This document shows, piece after piece, positions 1-19,224 of a stretch of DNA of 64,000 nt. The translations under genes were made by a program, and so were the position numbers. How positions within the stretch are numbered: the first letter of the stretch is position 1; each line of letters begins with the position of its first letter. The DNA is taken from the NCBI RefSeq assembly GCF_023016155.1, contig NZ_JALKBG010000003.1, positions 620,001 through 684,000 on the forward strand, read 5' to 3'. Source of the DNA: Aliiroseovarius sp. F20344 (GTDB taxonomy: Bacteria; Pseudomonadota; Alphaproteobacteria; Rhodobacterales; Rhodobacteraceae). Under the pieces are notes generated by a model. That model was not told the DNA's origin and did no database searches. It was given only the letters and a program-made list of their open reading frames with translations.

Positions 1-830
1 TCGTCCACGCGGTTCACGAAGACAACCATCTGTCCTAGCTCAAGCGCCTGCATCAGCCGCAGAAGTTTCAGGTCAGCTTGCGATAATGCCTGATGCGCTG
101 ACAGAACCACCACAAAGAAATCGGCATTACGCAGATGTTGGTGCGAGATCTCTTCGCGGATCAAAAGCGGATCGTTGATGCCGGGCGTGTCGGTAACCGT
201 CAGTGGAAAGGGAAACAGGCCCTGTTCAAAGAACACTTCTGCTTTCCGCGTCAGATCGCTGTAGTAGGGGGCCGCGTTTTCATCCGACTGCGCGGCTTCA
301 TCCTCCGGGTCTGCGCCTGCGCTGACATAACGGGCGAGGTCGTCTTGTGTCAGATCCTCGAAATCATGCGCCGTGCCCAGAAGTTCTTCATATTGCGAAC
401 CAAGGCGCTTTTGGGCGCGGGTCTTCATCGCCTCGATCTGTTCTTCGATGATCTGCCGCTTATAGTCGTCTTCGACATCCGGCAGCATGTCACGGATCTC
501 ATCCCCTTCGGTCAAAAGCGCCCGCCATTGCGCGTTGTCGAAGAAGTGAAAAAGACCACCTGACACACGTCCAGATGGGTGCCCGAAATGCATATCCGTC
601 ACGACGGTGGTCCAGGGGTTTACATCAGACGGCAGGAAATCTGCTTGGCCGGTAAAGCCATTGATCAGCCGGGATTTCCCGGCTTTGATCTGTCCAACAA
701 AGGCGATGCCGGGTTTCAGCGATTGAAGGTCGGACAGGATTCGCGCAATGAACGGCTGCGTTTCTTCGCGTGCCGTTTCCGCCATTCTTTCGGCGACCCG
801 AATTAAATCCTGTCGACGGACCTCATCCAT
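1..830 (-). CDS. Dynamin-like GTPase, 3' end cut by window (DLP-C)
   Basis: The frame opens at an ATG at 830 and runs off the left edge; about 276 residues are visible. The G domain is clear: P-loop GQIKAGKS at residues 46-53, G3 motif DTPG followed by IND, and G4 motif NRVD near the edge. The segment PSDVNPWT after the P-loop, and a charged helix after it, match the 670-residue GTPase encoded at 3809-5821, so the two are paralogues. Bacterial dynamin-like proteins bind membranes and remodel or tether them in a GTP-dependent way. It lies 88 bp downstream of the preceding cluster gene on the same strand, so it may be co-transcribed or have its own promoter. The stalk and membrane-binding parts are not visible. 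GTPase assignment is firm; the cellular role is unknown. Confidence 0.85.
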   Translation of the reverse strand, partial: MDEVRRQDLIRVAERMAETAREETQPFIARILSDLQSLKPGIAFVGQIKAGKSRLINGFTGQADFLPSDVNPWTTVVTDMHFGHPSGRVSGGLFHFFDNAQWRALLTEGDEIRDMLPDVEDDYKRQIIEEQIEAMKTRAQKRLGSQYEELLGTAHDFEDLTQDDLARYVSAGADPEDEAAQSDENAAPYYSDLTRKAEVFFEQGLFPFPLTVTDTPGINDPLLIREEISHQHLRNADFFVVVLSAHQALSQADLKLLRLMQALELGQMVVFVNRVD

Positions 831-918
831 TAATTGGCTTCCACCCCTAACTTAAAGAAACTCCATCCCCGTGCATCGCGCGTAAAAATGCGAGACGCTG
901 AAGTATTCAGCTAAAATT

Positions 919-1734
919 TTACTTTGCAGTCAATGATTTCCACATTTGAACAACCGCACCAAGCCTTCGTGTGTGATGAACAACCATCGCCGTTGCATCA
1001 ATATCACGGCAAATTGTCAAACTTGGCGTCTCTTCTCGACATGACCGCAGGATCACTAACTGAGGTGATGCTTCTTGGCCGCCATTTTCAGCATCCCAAG
1101 TTGCGAGATCATCCATCAACTGCCCAACTGCATCCAAATTTTGCGTCAGAACACCATCAGGTCCCGCGACTGCGGTGTCATCATGGCCAATCAGAATTCG
1201 TTGATCGGTAATTTTCTTGGCTTCAGAATGGAAGCTTGCCGCCAGTCCACACGCCTCGTTTAAGACAGCAGGTTTATCTAATGCTGTGTCAGCGTCAGGC
1301 GCTGCCTCGTCATGGAACAGCTCCATCACATCAAAGGCGCCTTCGATCTCAGAAGTTGGAATGCCAGTCGCGGCAACTTCGTCCGTGTTGTCGGGCGGGG
1401 TGCTGTGTAATTTCAAGCCTGTCCCCGAACAAATCATCGCCAGTATTTGCGCGACATGTTCCGCCGTAGTTTCGGGCGTGTTGGATTGCACGCCGTCCAT
1501 AGCCGTGTCCGACATGGACGCAACACGGCCATTGTTTACAGAAAGCGTTACGGCATCTTCTTCATCATTGCTGATTTGGATCATGCGGGGAAGGATGGTG
1601 GCGTGGACAATCTCGATGGCAGCCAAGCATCGCGCCTCGGTTGATGTGTGGTTTAGGTGAATGCTTTGATCACCCCGTGCAACGGTGTTGTCCACGATGT
1701 CAGTGAGCCGAGAAAGAATATCGCTCTGTTCCAT
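919..1734 (-). CDS. Unrecognised acidic protein in dynamin cluster
   Basis: I do not recognise this 271-residue protein. It is acidic, has no signal peptide or membrane segment, and has a low-complexity middle (about residues 85-160, rich in Asp, Glu, Ala and Thr). More regular segments flank it: an N-terminal part with alternating hydrophobic residues and a C-terminal part ending in HHTRRLGAVVQMWKSL. The frame stays open upstream through further ATGs at 1740 and 1746 and a TTG at 1752. I chose the ATG at 1734 because GGATGGGT lies at a workable distance. It begins within about 20 bp of the Roadblock-like gene stop, so it is probably translated from the same messenger. Function unknown; the context suggests a partner or regulator of the GTPases. 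Confidence 0.7.
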   Translation of the reverse strand: MEQSDILSRLTDIVDNTVARGDQSIHLNHTSTEARCLAAIEIVHATILPRMIQISNDEEDAVTLSVNNGRVASMSDTAMDGVQSNTPETTAEHVAQILAMICSGTGLKLHSTPPDNTDEVAATGIPTSEIEGAFDVMELFHDEAAPDADTALDKPAVLNEACGLAASFHSEAKKITDQRILIGHDDTAVAGPDGVLTQNLDAVGQLMDDLATWDAENGGQEASPQLVILRSCREETPSLTICRDIDATAMVVHHTRRLGAVVQMWKSLTAK

Positions 1735-1752
1735 CACCATACCCATCCGCAA

Positions 1753-2187
1753 TTAAACCGAAGCCGAAATAGCGTTCAGATTTGCCGCAGATTTAGCCAG
1801 CGCCAACCCAACATTTGTATCACCGTCAGAAACGAAACAGATCAGGTGGTCCGGCTGATCCTCTCGTCTGAGAAGCACGTAAAGCCGCCCGCCCGAATAG
1901 ATCGCGATTTCACCAAACCCAGTACTCGAAGCGTCTTTGTCGTCGGACAACAACTCTTCGAATGTGCGCACACCTTGTCCCAAAATCAGATTGGCGACAG
2001 ATGTCGACAGGGTTTCAAGCGCATCCATGCTGTCCTGATCCTGCCCCTGAAGCCCCAAAAGGAATCCGGTCTGCATATCGATATAGCCCGCCGCCAAACA
2101 ATTCGGGACGGACTGCATTGCGGCCAGAAGAGTTTCATCAAGCGAGAGCGCCCCACCTGTCGGAGTGCCTTTGTGAAGCGCCTGCAT
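1753..2187 (-). CDS. Probable Roadblock/LC7-fold protein
   Basis: A 144-residue cytoplasmic protein whose pattern fits the Roadblock/LC7 fold. A helix (LDETLLAAMQ) is followed by a strand and turn (GYIDMQTGFLLG), a long helix, two strands (GFGEIAIYSGGRLYVLL), and a final strand and helix with the NVGLALAKSA signature. Roadblock proteins in bacteria typically act with small GTPases, the best known being MglB as GAP for MglA. The start ATG overlaps the stop of the upstream GTPase by one base (TGATG), which implies translational coupling. The neighbour being a dynamin-like rather than a Ras-like GTPase is unusual. The fold call is by eye and could be wrong; a profile search would settle it. Confidence 0.6.
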   Translation of the reverse strand: MQALHKGTPTGGALSLDETLLAAMQSVPNCLAAGYIDMQTGFLLGLQGQDQDSMDALETLSTSVANLILGQGVRTFEELLSDDKDASSTGFGEIAIYSGGRLYVLLRREDQPDHLICFVSDGDTNVGLALAKSAANLNAISASV

Positions 2188-3803
2188 CACAGAACGTGCC
2201 AGACTGTATCGGCCTCTGCGGTTTCTTCACCAAGGGCCTGAAGCCCATCTTGCGATTGGCGGGCGTGATGCTCGCGAGCCTTATCGTCAAAGGATTTCAG
2301 GAAGGCTTGAAATTCATCCATCAGATCTGACGTGTCGCTGATGCTGCCAAGGGATGCGAGGTGTTCAGCCCATGCGTCAGCAGCGCTCAGAGGCGCAGTC
2401 TCAGGCAAACTGTACAAAGCTTGTCTAGCGGGCTTCCCGATGGGTTCAACCACTGCGCTTTCATCTGCAGTTTCTTTCTGCTCGATTTCGGCTTCTTCCG
2501 AGATTGCGGTGTCGTCTTCTTCAGAGACCAGCCCACTGATGGACGCGATCAGGGCATCAGAATCTTGTTCCGGCTCTTCTGCCGTATCTTCGCTCGTGGG
2601 TTCTGACGCAGCCATGGGGGCCTCGTCTGCGTCCGGATGCTCCTCTTCCGGCGCGTCCTCTGCGGTGACTTCAAGATCATCAGTGATGTCTTCCAGATCA
2701 GGGGTTTCGGCAACCTCGACCTCATCCACTTCGGGCTCGTCCGAGACCTCAAAGACGGACTTTAGATCCTGTTCATCACTGTTGTCCTGCCCATCGGTGT
2801 GCACCTGCGCGCGTAGTTTGCTTGCCTCTTCGGCATCAATCCGTTCACGCGGTTCTCTGTCATCGCGGCGACTGACATCGCGGCGCGGACGCGCAGGGCG
2901 GATGCGGATCACGTTGGTATCGTCTTCGGGCTTCTCATCATCCGCAACGGATAGGACCGGAGGGCTCCAAACGCGGGAAGATGCCTCATCACCGCCAAGC
3001 TGCAAAGCGTCTGAACTTGTTTCCAGACTTGTTTCGTCTTTCGTATAGCGCGACCGCATGCCCGCGCGCGCTTCCATAATGTCCGCAGTAATGGCCAGGA
3101 AATTGTCCACCAGCTTGTCGCCGCCGCTGCTGGCCCAAAGATCCGCATGCTCAGGCTTATCTCGCGCCGTGATCGCATCGCGGGCGGAGATCATGATGGC
3201 TTTGCGGAACAGATCACCTGCTTCGCGATCAATGCGGCGCAATACTTTGGCCTGATCGTTTTGGTTCAGCGCGTCCGAACGCGTCACCAGCAATATTGAG
3301 TTCTGACGAAGCCGCTCGGGCAGAGAAACCCAGGTCGCACGTTCCGTTTCGCGCCATGCTTGGGTCGAGTGGGTACACCACAAAACACCATTGGCCTGAC
3401 CTACGGCGCGTCGCCACACATCGGTCGAGATCTTGGGATCCGAAATGCCCGGCGTGTCGATCAGGTCAACCGCTTCCAGAATGTCAGCCTCAAGATAGAC
3501 GCGGACGAAATGTGCGCCCTGAACCCCAATATCTCCGATCTGGTCCAGCTCGATAGGTTCGCGGCTTCCGTCCAGCATTTGCACATAGGCAGGTTTGTTG
3601 CCCCATGAAAACCAAATGGGCGGCAACTGTGTCGCCGTGACCTGCGTGGGCAGTGTGTTGTTTTTCAAAAGGAAATTCAGAAGTGTCGACTTGCCCGCGC
3701 TGAATTCACCCATCAAGGCAAAAACAGGTTTGCGATGTGACCAGCGCTTCAGGCGTGTCCACTGATCAGCTGTGACGGTGCGTGGTGAAGTGTTTTCAGT
3801 CAT
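2187..3803 (-). CDS. Dynamin-superfamily GTPase with acidic tail (DLP-B)
   Basis: A 538-residue protein with an N-terminal G domain: P-loop GEFSAGKS at residues 32-39, G3 DTPG at 116-119 and G4 TRSD at 174-177. It is the most divergent of the three GTPases in the cluster. After about residue 250 the usual helical stalk is replaced by a long, highly acidic, probably disordered region (about 300-460), followed by a short predicted helical end. No membrane segment is seen. It starts 5 bp after the stop of the 670-residue GTPase and its stop overlaps the Roadblock-like gene, so the genes form one operon. Because of its sequence and missing stalk it may regulate or pair with the longer GTPase rather than act alone; that is inference. 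Confidence 0.82.
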   Translation of the reverse strand: MTENTSPRTVTADQWTRLKRWSHRKPVFALMGEFSAGKSTLLNFLLKNNTLPTQVTATQLPPIWFSWGNKPAYVQMLDGSREPIELDQIGDIGVQGAHFVRVYLEADILEAVDLIDTPGISDPKISTDVWRRAVGQANGVLWCTHSTQAWRETERATWVSLPERLRQNSILLVTRSDALNQNDQAKVLRRIDREAGDLFRKAIMISARDAITARDKPEHADLWASSGGDKLVDNFLAITADIMEARAGMRSRYTKDETSLETSSDALQLGGDEASSRVWSPPVLSVADDEKPEDDTNVIRIRPARPRRDVSRRDDREPRERIDAEEASKLRAQVHTDGQDNSDEQDLKSVFEVSDEPEVDEVEVAETPDLEDITDDLEVTAEDAPEEEHPDADEAPMAASEPTSEDTAEEPEQDSDALIASISGLVSEEDDTAISEEAEIEQKETADESAVVEPIGKPARQALYSLPETAPLSAADAWAEHLASLGSISDTSDLMDEFQAFLKSFDDKAREHHARQSQDGLQALGEETAEADTVWHVL

Positions 3804-3808
3804 GCGAG

Positions 3809-5821
3809 CTACGCTGCCTCGGTTCCCAGATCTTTCAGGATGTCACCCAAAAGTTCGTCTGGTGATTTGGTAGGTTGCAGGCCTGCCGCTTTGATGGCTT
3901 CGTCGTCCATCTTCGCTTGCGCAGACTTTGAAATCCCCAATAGGGTTTCCTGCTGTTCCACCATGAATTCAGCCAAAGCTGCGCGGACATTTTCAAGGAC
4001 CGCTGCGATCTGGTTTTCTTCGATGTCTTTGGTGATCGAGCTTGCTTCGGATGCAACCAACCGCGTGTAATCAGCCGCATAGCTTGCGATGCCTTTTCGG
4101 CGCTGCCACCAACGACGCCACCATGTGCTTTGCAAATCCAACGCAATCGTCCGACCAATGGCCAAAGGGGGCGGAACGTTCGGGACGATTGGGGGTTCGA
4201 TAGTGAACTCGCCCAGATTCTGACCCAGAAGCTTGCGATAAACAGTTTCAATGTCGTGTGCTGCGGATTGATAAAGCGCGCCAACTTCTTTGCGCATGGA
4301 CCGCGCAAAGTTGAAATACGCGGATTTTTGAAGCGCGCGGAAGCCGGCAGGGTCATACTGCCACGTGCCATCTTCGCCGTTCTTTTCCAAATGCTCGATC
4401 AACGACGCCGTTGCGCGTTTGATGAAGTTCTCTTCCGTACGTGCCAGACGCTGCATAACAGTGTCCCGCAGCGACGCAGTCAGCTCGGCTACGCGAGTTT
4501 CATAATCTGCGGCGACGGTTTTGATCGCGTCTTCTGGTGTCTTGCCGTCAAGGTCATAGACCATGGTGCCTGTGTCGGTCAGCGTCTTCGCGACCGAGGT
4601 TGCACGGATCTGGCTGGCCATGTTGCGCGCGCGGTTGCGAACACGGTTGCACAGGCGGGCACCTGCGCCTTCGGCGATCCGCTCGTTCATTGCAAGCAGC
4701 AGATCCGGAAGGCCAGACAGGGCCCAGATTTTCTCAAGCGAAACGTCTTCCGTATCGAAGCCGGCAGCGACGTAAAGCTTGTTCAGGGATTTTGCGGCGT
4801 CCTCGGACAGAAGATCAGAATTACCAGTCAGGGCCGCCTCGGCCCACATGGCGCTTCCGAAGATCACGCTGGCATCGGTGCCGATGCTGCTTTGCTTCAG
4901 CATCTCATTCACACGATCGCGGATTTCGGGAACTTCAGTAACTGGGTCGTGCAGCTCATCAATGCGGTTGATGAACAGAATGATCTGACGGTTCTCGAAT
5001 TGCGAGATCATGCGCATCAGCGCAAGATCCATGGTGGTTAGTGCTTGGCTTGCAGCCATGACAACCACACAGACCTCGGACCCGCGTAGGCTGCGCAATG
5101 TAATCTGCTCGCGCACCATGAAGGTATCGTTCACGCCAGGGGTGTCGCTTAGGTTCAACGAGATCGGGTATTCGGGAATGTCCAAATATAGCTCGGCGGT
5201 TTTGGTCACATCTGCGAAGCGGCCGCTTTCCGCGCTGATATTCGGATCATCTTCGTCGCCCATGCAGACATAGCGCTGCACCAGATCGTCGTCGAAATAG
5301 TCATACGAGTGGCTCTGGCCCATGATCAGGTCGAAATGCTTGCCTAGCCGTTCTTCGGACCGGGCCTTCATTGTTTCGACCTGACGGCGGATGTCGTCCA
5401 TTTCGTCATCCGCCCCAGCACGATTGGCCAGTTCACCTAGACGTCCGCCCCCGGCTGTCAGGTTCTGCCACTCGTCATGATCGAAGAAAGTGAATTTTGC
5501 TTTGGTATCGCCAGGCGTGCGCGTGTTGACGTGCAACGTTGTGGCGACGGATGTCCATGGGTTCACGTCCGAAGGCAACAGCCCCGGACGCCCCGCTAAA
5601 ACGTTCACAAGCGAGGATTTCCCCGCTTTGACCTGCCCAACGAAAGTTACGTTGGCGGTGAACTCCTCCATCCGCGTGGTCAGTTTGGCCAATCGGGCCG
5701 AACTGCGCGCATCCGCGATGGCAGTCAGTTGATCAATTGTCGCGTTCAAGCTGCTGAATGCATCATTCAACGGCTCAAGCGCCTCATTGCCCGTGGCAAG
5801 GAGATGGACATTGCGGGTCAC
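3809..5821 (-). CDS. Dynamin-like GTPase, full length (DLP-A)
   Basis: A 670-residue bacterial dynamin-like protein. The G domain shows P-loop GQVKAGKS (62-69), PSDVNPWTS (83-91, probable switch I region), DTPG (226-229) and NRID (285-288). The rest is mainly helical, as expected for a dynamin stalk. At about residue 567 there is a tryptophan- and arginine-rich patch (WWRRWWQRRK), a plausible membrane-touching element, followed by a long coiled-coil-like helix. The upstream gene stops 3 bp before it and the next GTPase starts 5 bp after it. Members of this family fuse, tether or protect membranes, and some act in phage defence; which applies here is not known. It is a clear paralogue of the GTPase at the left edge of the window. 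Confidence 0.88.
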   Translation of the reverse strand: MTRNVHLLATGNEALEPLNDAFSSLNATIDQLTAIADARSSARLAKLTTRMEEFTANVTFVGQVKAGKSSLVNVLAGRPGLLPSDVNPWTSVATTLHVNTRTPGDTKAKFTFFDHDEWQNLTAGGGRLGELANRAGADDEMDDIRRQVETMKARSEERLGKHFDLIMGQSHSYDYFDDDLVQRYVCMGDEDDPNISAESGRFADVTKTAELYLDIPEYPISLNLSDTPGVNDTFMVREQITLRSLRGSEVCVVVMAASQALTTMDLALMRMISQFENRQIILFINRIDELHDPVTEVPEIRDRVNEMLKQSSIGTDASVIFGSAMWAEAALTGNSDLLSEDAAKSLNKLYVAAGFDTEDVSLEKIWALSGLPDLLLAMNERIAEGAGARLCNRVRNRARNMASQIRATSVAKTLTDTGTMVYDLDGKTPEDAIKTVAADYETRVAELTASLRDTVMQRLARTEENFIKRATASLIEHLEKNGEDGTWQYDPAGFRALQKSAYFNFARSMRKEVGALYQSAAHDIETVYRKLLGQNLGEFTIEPPIVPNVPPPLAIGRTIALDLQSTWWRRWWQRRKGIASYAADYTRLVASEASSITKDIEENQIAAVLENVRAALAEFMVEQQETLLGISKSAQAKMDDEAIKAAGLQPTKSPDELLGDILKDLGTEAA

Positions 5822-5824
5822 GAC

Positions 5825-6253
5825 TTAGCCCTCCGTGCCGTTCAGGGCGTCAATTAGAATGGTTTCACCGAAGACACGACCTGCGGGCAATCTCGAAGGT
5901 GCATCGATAAGCTCGATCAGTTCGATGACGTCACGGATCAGCTTTGTCTCGGGCAATGTTCGCTCAACAAGGGCTTCCGGCACATCTGCGAAAACACTCA
6001 CGCATTGAAAGCGATCCCCGCTTTCAAGTTTTGCGATCTGTTCGCCATTCGGAAAGCCATCGGCTTTGTTTTCTGGAAGCTGCATGTTGGCGTTCGCCAG
6101 CATGTAATGCTCGTCGTCCTGTGTCATCAGCGAGATGCCAAACCCGATTCCGGGATAGGCCGCGCTAAGATATTGCAAGCGGTCGCTTAATTCCCGTCTT
6201 AAGACAAAAACGGCATGTTTCTGAATATCTACAATGTTGGATACAGCGTTCAC
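5825..6253 (-). CDS. Unrecognised small protein, first gene of dynamin operon
   Basis: A 142-residue soluble protein I do not recognise. I place the start at a GTG at 6253 (NAVSNIVDIQKHAVF follows) with a weak AAAGG upstream. A longer frame reaches 6331, but its N-terminus looks non-coding. The sequence alternates helix-like stretches (VFVLRRELSDRLQYL, LIRDVIELIELID) with strands. It lies 3 bp before DLP-A and appears to be the promoter-proximal gene of the cluster. It could be a second GTPase partner or adaptor, but nothing in the sequence proves that. Confidence 0.65.
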   Translation of the reverse strand: MNAVSNIVDIQKHAVFVLRRELSDRLQYLSAAYPGIGFGISLMTQDDEHYMLANANMQLPENKADGFPNGEQIAKLESGDRFQCVSVFADVPEALVERTLPETKLIRDVIELIELIDAPSRLPAGRVFGETILIDALNGTEG

Positions 6254-6861
6254 GGTTGGGGCCTTTGGTTTAGGTAGAGTGGGATACCAGACAGGCCTCT
6301 GAAAAAAGAGAGGACAGGAACTCATAAACACAACACTTAACGAGCTTGACCCAGAACCGGGCGGTAATTAGACCCAATTGAGGGTTCTTGGTGTCTCAAA
6401 TGAGGCAGAAATGAGGCGCCCCAAAATTTGCTTACATTTCCATTGTTAAGAGAAATTAAGAATTTGCAATATGTCCAAAGAATCTGAGCCTAAATCCGCA
6501 TTTGTCAGTATTGGATCCCATATTCTGATCGATTCCACATTGGGTCATGTGATTCTTTCTTCAGAATCCGAATCGTATTCGGATGCATTAGGTGTCCGGA
6601 ATATATAGATATAATTCGTGTCAATTACGCAGGTCGTCAAAGTTGGCAGTTTTCGTAACTCGATCAGGATCAAAGCAATAACGATGCACTGCGAACGAAT
6701 TCACAGCAAAATTGCGTCACGAAATGTGATTGATGCGGGTTGGTCACTGAAAGAAATTACAACTTAATAGTGTAATCTTTTAGTCGAATTGATCTGTGAC
6801 AAATTGGGTTATCCAGACCTCGGATAGGTGTCGCAAGACACCACCACTCGAGGCCTTCCTG
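6254..6861. other. AT-rich intergenic region between divergent genes
   Basis: About 600 bp without a convincing gene, clearly richer in A and T than its surroundings. It separates the minus-strand dynamin cluster from the plus-strand cytochrome c and must hold both promoters. It contains a perfect 8-bp inverted repeat at 6566-6584. A 45-codon open frame at 6471-6608 lacks a ribosome binding site and does not look coded. A TTAA-N6-TTAA pair at 6446-6459 misses CtrA spacing by one base. Confidence 0.7.
6566..6584. promoter_or_regulatory. Perfect inverted repeat, possible operator
   Basis: ATCCGAAT, a 3-base spacer CGT, then ATTCGGAT. The arms are exact reverse complements and sit in the AT-rich region between the dynamin operon and the cytochrome c gene. 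The short spacer and lack of a T run fit a dimeric repressor site better than a terminator. No cognate regulator is identified. Confidence 0.4.
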
Positions 6862-7305
6862 ATGACCAAAACTATCCACCTACTGGCTGCCTTCCTACTG
6901 GCCCCCATACACTCCTATGCCGACGGTGATCCCTTGCGCGGCGAAAAACTCTACAACCGCTGCTCTTCCTGCCACGCCATCATAAGCCCGGAAGGTGAGG
7001 TGTTGATGAAAGGCGGGATTACCGGGCCAAACCTTTATGGCGTCATCGGACGACAGGCCGGGACCGAAGGCGATTATCGGAATGGGAGCGAGCGTTTGCC
7101 GATTGGTATGTTCACAGACGACATGATCCGCGCGGGCGAACAGGGTCTGGTTTGGACATCCGAAAACCTGATCGAATACGCCAAAGACCCAATAGGTTTC
7201 ATTCGCGTTTTTCTGAATGATCCCAAAGCGCGTCCGAACATGTCGGTCAAACTGCGAAAGGGCGCGGATGATATCGTAGCCTTTATCGCGACGTACTCGG
7301 AGTAA
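6862..7305 (+). CDS. Periplasmic class I cytochrome c
   Basis: A 147-residue secreted c-type cytochrome. The N-terminus (MTKTIHLLAAFLLAPIHSYA) is a Sec signal peptide. The mature part carries a single haem motif CSSCH and a downstream GPNLYGVIGR segment typical of cytochrome c2/c-552-like proteins. A C-terminal RPNMSV supplies the methionine haem ligand. It would carry electrons in the periplasm. The frame opens upstream at 6796, but the ATG at 6862 gives the signal peptide and has GAGG upstream. The gene stands alone, so its partner oxidase or dehydrogenase is not indicated by context. Confidence 0.87.
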   Translation: MTKTIHLLAAFLLAPIHSYADGDPLRGEKLYNRCSSCHAIISPEGEVLMKGGITGPNLYGVIGRQAGTEGDYRNGSERLPIGMFTDDMIRAGEQGLVWTSENLIEYAKDPIGFIRVFLNDPKARPNMSVKLRKGADDIVAFIATYSE

Positions 7306-7340: not shown

Positions 7341-7362
7341 AAAGGCCCCGCGAGGGACCTTT
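7341..7362 (-). terminator. Rho-independent terminator of tRNA-Pro
   Basis: A stem of AAAGGTCCC with GGGGCCTTT (one G-T pair) around a four-base loop, followed on the minus strand by a T-rich run. It sits just past the CCA end of tRNA-Pro and between two convergent units, so it may also stop transcription from the cytochrome c gene. Confidence 0.7.
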
Positions 7363-7367
7363 GTATT

Positions 7368-7444
7368 TGGTCGGGCTGAGAGGATTCGAACCTCCGACCC
7401 CCTGCTCCCGAAGCAGGTGCGCTACCAGGCTGCGCTACAGCCCG
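7368..7444 (-). tRNA. tRNA-Pro (anticodon CGG)
   Basis: A complete cloverleaf of 77 nt including an encoded CCA. The acceptor stem CGGGCTG pairs with CAGCCCG. The anticodon stem-loop is CCTGC TTCGGGA GCAGG, so the anticodon is CGG, reading CCG codons. The T loop TTCGAAT is flanked by GGAGG and CCTCT (one G-T pair). It is transcribed away from the Na/Pi symporter gene and ends in a hairpin terminator. Confidence 0.96.
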
Positions 7445-7576
7445 ACCGTGGCGGGTGACCTATACCTCACAGGGTCAATTTGCAAGCGCCTTTTGCCGCA
7501 TGAGAAGCAAGCCGTTACGCTTGAGAAGCACATCGTATTGCGACAAACTGGGCTGGAACTGAGCTGGGGCAAAAGC

Positions 7577-17703: not shown

Positions 17704-19224
17704 ATGACCACCCCAAAACCTGTTGTTTTGTGCATTCTTGACGGATGGGGTCTGCGCGAGGACACCGCCTTCAACGCCCCCGCTTTGGCGAAGACGCCGA
17801 ATTTCGATCGACTGATAGCGACGTGCCCCAACAACACGCTTATCACCCATGGGCCGGATGTGGGTCTGCCCACCGGCCAAATGGGCAACTCCGAAGTTGG
17901 CCACACCAATATCGGTGCGGGCCGCGTGGTGGCAATGGATCTGGGCCAAATCGACCTGGCGATCGAGGATGGCAGCTTCTTCAAGAACCAAGCACTTCAG
18001 GACTTTGCGGCCAAAGTCAAAGCGGCTGGCGGCACGGCCCATATCGCAGGGCTTGTCAGCCCCGGCGGCGTTCACAGCCATCAGGATCACTTGGTTGCTG
18101 CGGCGAAGGCATTGACGGAGGCGGGCCTAGCGGTTGCCATTCATGCCATCACCGATGGGCGCGACGTGGCACCTCAGTCCGCCCGCAAACAGTTGGCTGC
18201 GTTTCAAGCAGACCTGCCAGAAGGCGCGCGCATCGTTACCTTGTCAGGGCGCTATTTCGCAATGGATCGCGACAATCGGTGGGAACGTGTTTCGCTGGCG
18301 TATAAAGCCATCACCCATGGGGCTGGAAACATCTTCAGCTCGGTCGATGCGGCGATTTCCTCGGCTTACAACAACGAAACAACGGATGAATTCATCCGCC
18401 CGGTGATCATTGACGAATACGTCGGCCTGCAAGATGGCGATGGCCTGTTCTTCATCAACTTCCGCGCCGACCGGGCTCGTGAGCTTCTGCGCGCCATTGG
18501 CGAGCCGGAATTTGATGAATTTGACGTGGGCACACGACCGAACCTCTCTGCGCTGTTGGGCATGGTCGAATACTCGGATAGCCACAACGCCTACATGACC
18601 ACCTGCTTTCCCAAGCGGGATATTGCGAACACGCTGGCCGAATGGGTCGCCAAACACGGCAAGACCCAGTTCCACACGGCCGAGACCGAGAAATATCCCC
18701 ATGTCACCTTCTTCCTGAACGGTGGCAAGGAGGACCCGGTCGAGGGTGAGACGCGCTATATGGCCGCCAGTCCCAAGGTTGCGACCTATGACCTGCAGCC
18801 CGAGATGTCGGCGCCAGATGTGACCGAGCATTTTGTGGGTGCGATCCGCGAAGGCTATGACCTGATCGTGACCAACTATGCAAATCCGGATATGGTTGGG
18901 CATACGGGTGATCTGGACGCAGCGATTGCTGCCTGTGAAGCCGTTGATGAAGGATTGGGTCGGGTGATTGCAGCGCTGGAAGATGTTGGAGGCGCGATGA
19001 TCGTCACCGCAGACCACGGCAACTGCGAAACCATGTGGGATGATGCAACGAACGGTCCGCATACCGCACACACCACAAACCCCGTGCCTGTGGTGCTTTT
19101 CGGTGGACCGGACGGCATATCGCTGAACCACGGCCGCCTTGCTGATTTGGCCCCAACGTTGTTGGAGCTAATGGACCTTCCGAAACCCGCCGAAATGACT
19201 GGCGAAAGCCTGATCAGCCGGTGA
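17704..19224 (+). CDS. gpmI: 2,3-bisphosphoglycerate-independent phosphoglycerate mutase
   Basis: GpmI interconverts 3- and 2-phosphoglycerate using two manganese ions and a phosphoserine. The 506-residue protein shows the alkaline-phosphatase-type motifs: CILDGWG at the N-terminus, the catalytic serine in GNSEVGHTN, GRYFAMDRD, and the metal site TADHGNCE near the C-terminus. The next gene begins inside its stop codon (GTGA), so the glycolytic gene is coupled to a cell-envelope gene and then ctpA. Confidence 0.96.
   Translation: MTTPKPVVLCILDGWGLREDTAFNAPALAKTPNFDRLIATCPNNTLITHGPDVGLPTGQMGNSEVGHTNIGAGRVVAMDLGQIDLAIEDGSFFKNQALQDFAAKVKAAGGTAHIAGLVSPGGVHSHQDHLVAAAKALTEAGLAVAIHAITDGRDVAPQSARKQLAAFQADLPEGARIVTLSGRYFAMDRDNRWERVSLAYKAITHGAGNIFSSVDAAISSAYNNETTDEFIRPVIIDEYVGLQDGDGLFFINFRADRARELLRAIGEPEFDEFDVGTRPNLSALLGMVEYSDSHNAYMTTCFPKRDIANTLAEWVAKHGKTQFHTAETEKYPHVTFFLNGGKEDPVEGETRYMAASPKVATYDLQPEMSAPDVTEHFVGAIREGYDLIVTNYANPDMVGHTGDLDAAIAACEAVDEGLGRVIAALEDVGGAMIVTADHGNCETMWDDATNGPHTAHTTNPVPVVLFGGPDGISLNHGRLADLAPTLLELMDLPKPAEMTGESLISR

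Follow-up and report, generated by a model that had tools for sequence, protein, structure and literature searches.

Dynamin-like GTPase pairs encoded with a Roadblock-like protein and a Ser/Thr kinase module in Rhodobacterales: a possible envelope-responsive membrane system

What could several dynamin-like GTPases (DLPs) do together with a Roadblock-like protein encoded in the same cluster, and which other genes belong with them? The question is raised by the start of a 64,000-nucleotide stretch of Aliiroseovarius sp. F20344 (here called the window; contig NZ_JALKBG010000003.1, positions 620001 to 684000), which was examined mainly up to window position 12.3 kb. An initial annotation made from the window described six genes: three dynamins, a Roadblock-like protein, and two proteins that it did not recognize.

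RESULTS

Gene content of the cluster

The edge of the window cuts a minus-strand cluster of 12 genes and 15 kb, and the window holds only its front part. The cluster consists of four dynamin-like GTPases in two pairs, each with a large and a small member, the Roadblock-like protein RBL, proteins g5 and g1, a Ser/Thr kinase (STPK), an FHA protein, a PP2C phosphatase, and two LysM/solute-binding proteins. The genome stretch around it is designated L002, where window position equals L002 position minus 11000. The genes are as follows.

g1, window 5825..6331, minus strand: small protein of 168 amino acids (aa), GTG start as listed, no Pfam match
g2 (DLP-A), window 3809..5821, minus strand: large dynamin-like GTPase, 670 aa, Dynamin_N 46.5 bits
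g3, window 2187..3803, minus strand: small dynamin-like GTPase with a long acidic tail, 538 aa, Dynamin_N 39.6 bits
g4 (RBL), window 1753..2190, minus strand: Roadblock/LC7-superfamily protein by profile-profile comparison with Robl_LC7, 145 aa
g5, window 919..1752, minus strand: 277 aa as listed from TTG, no Pfam match
g6 (DLP-B), window 1..830 (N-terminal part; full gene L002:9791-11830), minus strand: second large dynamin-like GTPase, 679 aa, Dynamin_N 50.9 bits
g7, L002:8520-9794, minus strand: small GTPase, 424 aa, Dynamin_N 36.3 bits
g8, L002:6115-8202, minus strand: Ser/Thr kinase, 695 aa, Pkinase over the Pfam cut-off
g9, L002:5026-5991, minus strand: FHA protein, 321 aa, FHA over the Pfam cut-off
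g10, L002:4237-5022, minus strand: PP2C phosphatase, 261 aa, PP2C over the Pfam cut-off
g11, L002:2941-4203, minus strand: LysM/solute-binding protein, 420 aa, LysM and SBP_bac_3 below cut-off
g12, L002:1788-3017, minus strand: LysM/solute-binding protein, up to 409 aa, SBP_bac_3 below cut-off

The one-strand organization with tight junctions described earlier was recovered on the minus strand, with gaps of 3 bp (5821/5825) and 5 bp (3803/3809), a 4-bp overlap (2187-2190), and a 0-bp junction (1752/1753). A gap of 317 bp separates g7 from g8, suggesting two transcripts. One close relative (L055) suggests that g1 starts ~25 codons later than listed. As a whole, the six-gene set of the initial annotation proved too small: a fourth GTPase and the half of the cluster encoding the kinase, FHA, PP2C, and periplasmic proteins had been missed, and with them the mechanism to be expected changes.

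Conservation and types of locus

A DLP-A homologue was found in 72 of the 196 genomes of the order. In the order sample (84 stretches spanning all 72 genomes, mapped with HMMs built here), RBL was present in 63 of these genomes, g5 in 62, the STPK in 62, PP2C in 62, and FHA in 43. At least one gene of the kinase module (STPK, FHA, or PP2C) was mapped in 66 genomes and accompanied RBL in 62; within the stretches read, 6 of the 72 had DLP-A without any kinase-module gene, and 5 had DLP/GTPase genes without RBL, g5, or kinase genes. Since the arrangement recurs across the order, it is far beyond chance, and the idea of a strain-specific oddity is ruled out. Conservation of the neighborhood in Rhodobacterales (RBL in 63/72, RBL plus kinase module in 62/72) supports the multi-component GTPase system with Roadblock that had been proposed from the window.

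A scan of named genomes confirmed at least 499 relatives, the best 80 of which, going by their record titles, belong to Rhodobacterales genera, Rhodobacteraceae metagenome-assembled genomes (MAGs), or alphaproteobacterial MAGs. The cluster is also carried by a marine laboratory strain, Ruegeria lacuscaerulensis ITI-1157 (L116; listed as Silicibacter lacuscaerulensis). Identities among these 80 were 89 to 90% in Aliiroseovarius and 72 to 74% in Ruegeria, apart from one type II copy, and the loci of the best 80 of at least 499 contained RBL in 70 cases, g5 in 70, and g1 in 55. DLP-A and the kinase genes lay on the same strand in 68/68 loci of the order sample and in 60/65 of the named loci (best 80 of at least 499). 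More distant samples gave matches only within the Aliiroseovarius family: RBL in 2 of 289 genomes of the class, and the DLP-A profile in 4 of 249 genomes of the phylum.

Three types of locus were distinguished: (i) type I, with g1, two DLP/GTPase pairs, RBL, g5, the kinase module, and the LysM/solute-binding proteins, which occurs in the own genus (seven genomes with a close form of DLP-A, some of them mapped) and in Ruegeria, and in a form without DLP-B in Defluviimonas, Frigidibacter, and others; (ii) type II, with the kinase, FHA, PP2C, an atypical small GTPase, DLP-A, a small GTPase, RBL, and g5; and (iii) type III, with DLP/GTPase genes alone. In L100 to L102, L106, L110, and L113, the modules are rearranged and still adjoin. 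Double DLP/GTPase pairs without Roadblock or kinase module were seen in L049, L050, L052, L268, and L185, a plasmid of Rhodobacter sp. CZR27; in L185, the pairs are followed by genes for a sensor histidine kinase, a DUF6781 protein, and an AarF/UbiB protein.

Dynamin-like GTPases

All four GTPases score above the Pfam cut-off for Dynamin_N (27 bits). The three G domains noted in the window were confirmed by this measure, and their G1/G3/G4 motifs are GQVKAGKS/DTPG/NRID, GEFSAGKS/DTPG/TRSD, and GQIKAGKS/DTPG/NRVD. The count of three dynamins is right for the window itself, where the edge cuts the third; the fourth Dynamin_N GTPase, g7, lies outside it and rules out a system of three dynamins only. 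A genome-wide search for Dynamin_N gave seven places, and only the four of the cluster were covered over most of the domain. The other three matches, of which two are over the cut-off, cover no more than 36 to 47 of the 168 profile positions, and we take them for other GTPases.

The PDB sequences nearest to DLP-A are those of the Campylobacter jejuni DLP pair (5owv) and BDLP (2j68), and its Trp/Arg-rich segment WWRRWWQRR is well conserved in an alignment of 11 relatives. DLP-B is a paralogue of DLP-A on a separate branch. In a midpoint-rooted tree of 50 DLPs, drawn without support values, the DLP-A proteins of type I and type II loci group together, and DLP-B and the type III proteins fall outside that group.

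The acidic proteins of the initial annotation come down mainly to the tail of g3, to which the description does apply: D and E make up on average 25% of 59 tails of its type I family. FHA-type T..D sites, at 136 in these 59 related tails, barely exceeded the 107 of shuffled sequences (mean z, 0.4). The four atypical small GTPases examined in type II loci are encoded between PP2C and DLP-A, and all four have a P-loop and T[KR]xD without DxPG (e.g., L044:11288-12775), suggesting that this GTPase may bind GTP without hydrolysis.

Roadblock-like protein RBL and proteins g5 and g1

As single sequences, RBL and 25 relatives did not match PF03259, and no Pfam or NCBIfam model matched RBL itself. By profile-profile comparison, the RBL family matched Robl_LC7 with a probability of 96.3% (P, 1.8e-9; 124 columns), whereas the controls (g5, g1, the reversed profile, and 100 column shuffles) reached at most 1.0%. 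The Robl_LC7 profile behind the 96.3% had 35 rows from 30 loci, which were found with 13 of the 15 rows of a first, poorer profile; that first profile, with two misframed rows, had given 58.8%. Against the PDB, the RBL profile had five weak matches, four of them to LAMTOR4 (E, 0.28 to 1.4), a Roadblock-fold subunit of Ragulator. On profile evidence, RBL belongs to the Roadblock superfamily, and at that level the original Roadblock guess was correct.

With g5 and g1 at 0.5% and 1.0% against Robl_LC7, these are not supported as extra Roadblock proteins. Nothing convincing was found for either in the PDB or Pfam, and g1, g4, and g5 had no Pfam match at an E value of 0.1 or better. A search of the whole genome with Robl_LC7 gave nothing over the cut-off; a second weak match below it lies in a 617-aa frame (G000:C8:638427-638576; L133) that has counterparts in three congeners.

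In the order sample, the gene mapped next before RBL is that of the small GTPase in 60 of 67 cases and that of DLP-A in five; in two, no gene was mapped there. Because the small GTPase is next upstream in 60 of the 67, the gene order points to it, rather than to the large dynamins, as the putative Roadblock partner. A Roadblock protein is part of the system as first described, while the suggestion that it controls the dynamins would shift from the large to the small GTPase. Downstream, g5 is the next mapped gene in 61/67 cases of the order sample and in 68/70 named loci (best 80 of at least 499).

Kinase module and periplasmic proteins

The STPK-FHA-PP2C set is complete in g8, g9, and g10. A genome-wide FHA search returned nothing, yet g9 passes the Pfam cut-off by hmmscan; such a first look may miss short domains. 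The solved kinases nearest to g8 are PpkA (5hnv; E, 7e-38), a Serratia protein, and then PknB (E, 4e-26). The catalytic motifs are retained in the kinases read, with HRDxxxxN in 64/65 and DFG in 65/65. In g8, one hydrophobic stretch (residues 386 to 404) lies behind the kinase domain, and beyond it is a PDZ match below threshold. A transmembrane stretch is present in 31 of the 65 kinases and absent from 34, so periplasmic sensing is not general.

Genes for periplasmic binding proteins, with signal peptides judged by eye, adjoin the module in two versions, LysM+SBP and, in other loci, PBP+OmpA, which look like unrelated builds of the same plan of a wall-bound binding protein. Among PDB sequences, g11 is closest to LysM proteins (E, 0.001 to 0.03), and SBP_bac_3 domains may bind wall fragments. 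Either version was found in 13 of the 31 loci with a transmembrane kinase versus none of the 34 without (Fisher P, 1.3e-5), an association that is weakened by relatedness and by the limited stretches. When 16 kinase clusters were counted instead, with two mixed clusters taken as transmembrane, binding proteins occurred in 3/4 transmembrane clusters versus 0/12 others (P, 0.007). In the stretches read, many of which end before the type I position of these genes, only 14 of the 72 genomes had binding proteins (LysM-SBP in 8, PBP-OmpA in 6).

Patchy distribution, loss, and plasmids

Within the genus, a DLP-A homologue occurs in 8 of 21 genomes, in seven as the close form. In congener G197 (L203), which has no DLP-A, the alignment of the flanks with L002 stops at position 3120 and resumes at 18117. 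It retains g12 (67% identical) and remnants of two genes (L203:4629-4982): from g11, approximately the 58 C-terminal residues are left, and from the flanking gene at window 6796-7305, the second part. This flanking gene had been labeled a cytochrome c because of a CxxCH motif (no Pfam match at an E value of 1e-4). The simplest reading would be one deletion of ~15 kb that removed nearly the whole cluster; the site is near a tRNA-Pro gene (window 7368-7444).

DLP-A homologues were also found on 18 plasmid records. In three of the four plasmid regions examined, genes of the size of RBL and g5 lie beside the DLPs, and the kinase module is present; the fourth (L185) has DLP/GTPase genes only. A phage-borne cluster was rejected, as 50,697 phage records gave no match at an E value of 1e-5.

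DISCUSSION

Relation to described systems

Among the matches listed in the open-license PMC literature (titles and beginnings of abstracts), no described counterpart was found, and comparisons are with systems that share parts of the cluster. Neighboring genes for large GTPases are also the arrangement of the paired bacterial DLPs, C. jejuni Cj-DLP1/2 and Nostoc BDLP1, which are the best PDB sequence relatives of DLP-A. According to the available excerpt of one paper, bacterial DLPs mostly occur as operon pairs, the C. jejuni pair bridges or tethers membranes, and its operon adds, putatively, only an HcpA-like protein (PMC6104087). Here, in contrast, each large DLP adjoins a small GTPase, and Roadblock, g5, and kinase, FHA, and PP2C genes are added.

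An STPK, an FHA protein, and a PP2C phosphatase in one cluster are likewise found in the threonine phosphorylation pathway (PpkA, Fha, PppA) of the type VI secretion system (T6SS), in which, as far as the excerpt of the source goes, damage to the outer membrane is sensed through TagQRST-PpkA and followed by Fha phosphorylation and local assembly (PMC11881912). Unlike in that pathway, dynamins take the place of the secretion machine, and the FHA protein of the cluster matches FhaB and OdhI models below the cut-off and no T6SS model. VipB, the single T6SS marker searched, was present in 4 of 20 genomes searched and absent from this one, so the kinase module here probably does not serve a T6SS; judged by VipB, a cluster that is part of a T6SS is not supported for the host genome.

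In MglA/MglB and the conservons, a Roadblock protein is combined with a small GTPase, and the genes adjoin as they do here. The GTPase of the present cluster is, however, dynamin-like rather than Ras-like (the partner GTPases match Dynamin_N, and their matches at an E value of 1 or better include no Ras-family model), and RBL alone matches no Pfam model. LeoABC (PADLOC) is also a multi-gene dynamin-like cluster. Its LeoA and LeoBC models gave 18 to 42 bits over parts only of their 559 and 601 positions, with no good full-length match, and we know of no Roadblock or kinase in LeoABC.

Proposed mechanism and alternatives

The assembly of the genes is well supported; from it we infer the function and also the action at the membrane. 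At somewhat less than an even chance, we favor a system, conserved in Rhodobacterales, that links dynamin-like GTPases to Ser/Thr phosphorylation as an envelope-sensing circuit for local tethering or repair of the membrane. LysM/solute-binding proteins on the periplasmic peptidoglycan would respond to wall fragments set free or to damage of the envelope and pass this signal to the periplasmic part of the kinase. Once activated, the kinase would phosphorylate the FHA protein and/or the small GTPases, and PP2C would reset this switch. RBL might bind the small GTPase of the adjoining gene and set the nucleotide state or place of this GTPase, as Roadblock proteins do with small GTPases. The small GTPase so controlled would then permit assembly of its large dynamin partner on the cytoplasmic membrane, where the large dynamin could tether, fuse, or reseal the membrane at the origin of the signal. 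By analogy, this logic resembles that of PpkA/Fha/PppA in type VI secretion, with its local action at outer-membrane damage, and the output would be a dynamin instead of a secretion machine. The membrane-tethering and local-damage parts of the model are supported by this analogy and by that with paired DLPs, as described in excerpts of the two sources (PMC11881912 and PMC6104087).

A fuller version, to which we give marginally less credence, would have the dynamin pairs gated by Roadblock and driven by receptors bound to the wall together with a transmembrane kinase, an FHA adaptor, and a phosphatase. In this version, a type-VI-like damage circuit would have been rewired for tethering or resealing of membrane, and g5 and g1 would be two new families. 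If true, bacteria would have a regulated membrane machine of a new kind, in which the kinase logic of type VI secretion acts on another output. To our knowledge, little is known about the regulation of bacterial dynamins, and the conserved set (Roadblock, kinase/FHA/PP2C, and, in some loci, periplasmic binding proteins with dynamin pairs) makes phospho-control of a bacterial dynamin directly testable.

The patchy presence (72/196 genomes of the order and 8/21 of the genus) and the 18 plasmid records with a DLP-A homologue would also suit an anti-phage or anti-toxin system, in which infection would be detected by the kinase, and the dynamins would preserve or reseal the membrane or bring about cell death; the bacterial dynamin DynA reportedly gives phage tolerance. 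The kinase matches the PADLOC PD-T4-6 kinase models (best E, 3.5e-45), but 35 PADLOC families match it, which we take as generic kinase similarity, and the weak LeoA/LeoBC matches of the GTPases (18 to 42 bits) cover only parts of the models. None of the eight genes flanking the locus matched PADLOC at an E value of 0.001; their Pfam names are DUF1538, P-II, CBS, Na/Pi cotransporter, Iso_dh (isopropylmalate-type dehydrogenase), and Exo_endo_phos, with two genes without a match. Together with the absence of a named defense gene from the four annotated plasmid regions, where several genes are hypothetical, and of matches in the phage records, this makes a defense role rather unlikely.

Slightly less doubtful, and still unlikely, is a machine for vesicles, membrane tubes, or intracellular membranes (export or shaping of organelles) whose assembly is timed by the kinase and Roadblock. 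It would account for the two DLP/GTPase pairs, their sequence relation to tethering DLPs, and the adjoining periplasmic binding proteins, but no cargo, secretion, or photosynthesis gene is common to the four annotated plasmid regions (in one, L184, an HlyD/RbbA-type transporter adjoins). The least probable alternative is that two independent systems lie side by side, a DLP/Roadblock operon and a general STPK/FHA/PP2C sensor operon, as might be read from the 317-bp gap between g7 and g8, from the kinase genes on the other strand in 5/65 named loci (best 80 of at least 499), and from the 6/72 DLP-A genomes with no kinase-module gene in the stretches read. Against this, the halves adjoin in 62 of the 72 genomes, also through rearrangements, the type II kinase genes precede the DLPs on the same strand, and nearly all of both halves are missing together in one congener.

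Minor sequence observations

L095 and L096, which come from differently named species, are contigs of 3449 and 3450 bases, and on both the mapping gave DLP-A and the small GTPase and nothing else; this likeness may stem from flanking repeats or from genomes that are nearly identical. Beside the cluster, the Na/Pi cotransporter ORF as listed (window 7361-7453 region) starts next to the opposite-strand tRNA-Pro(CGG) gene at 7368-7444 and reads through it, so its true start is further down.
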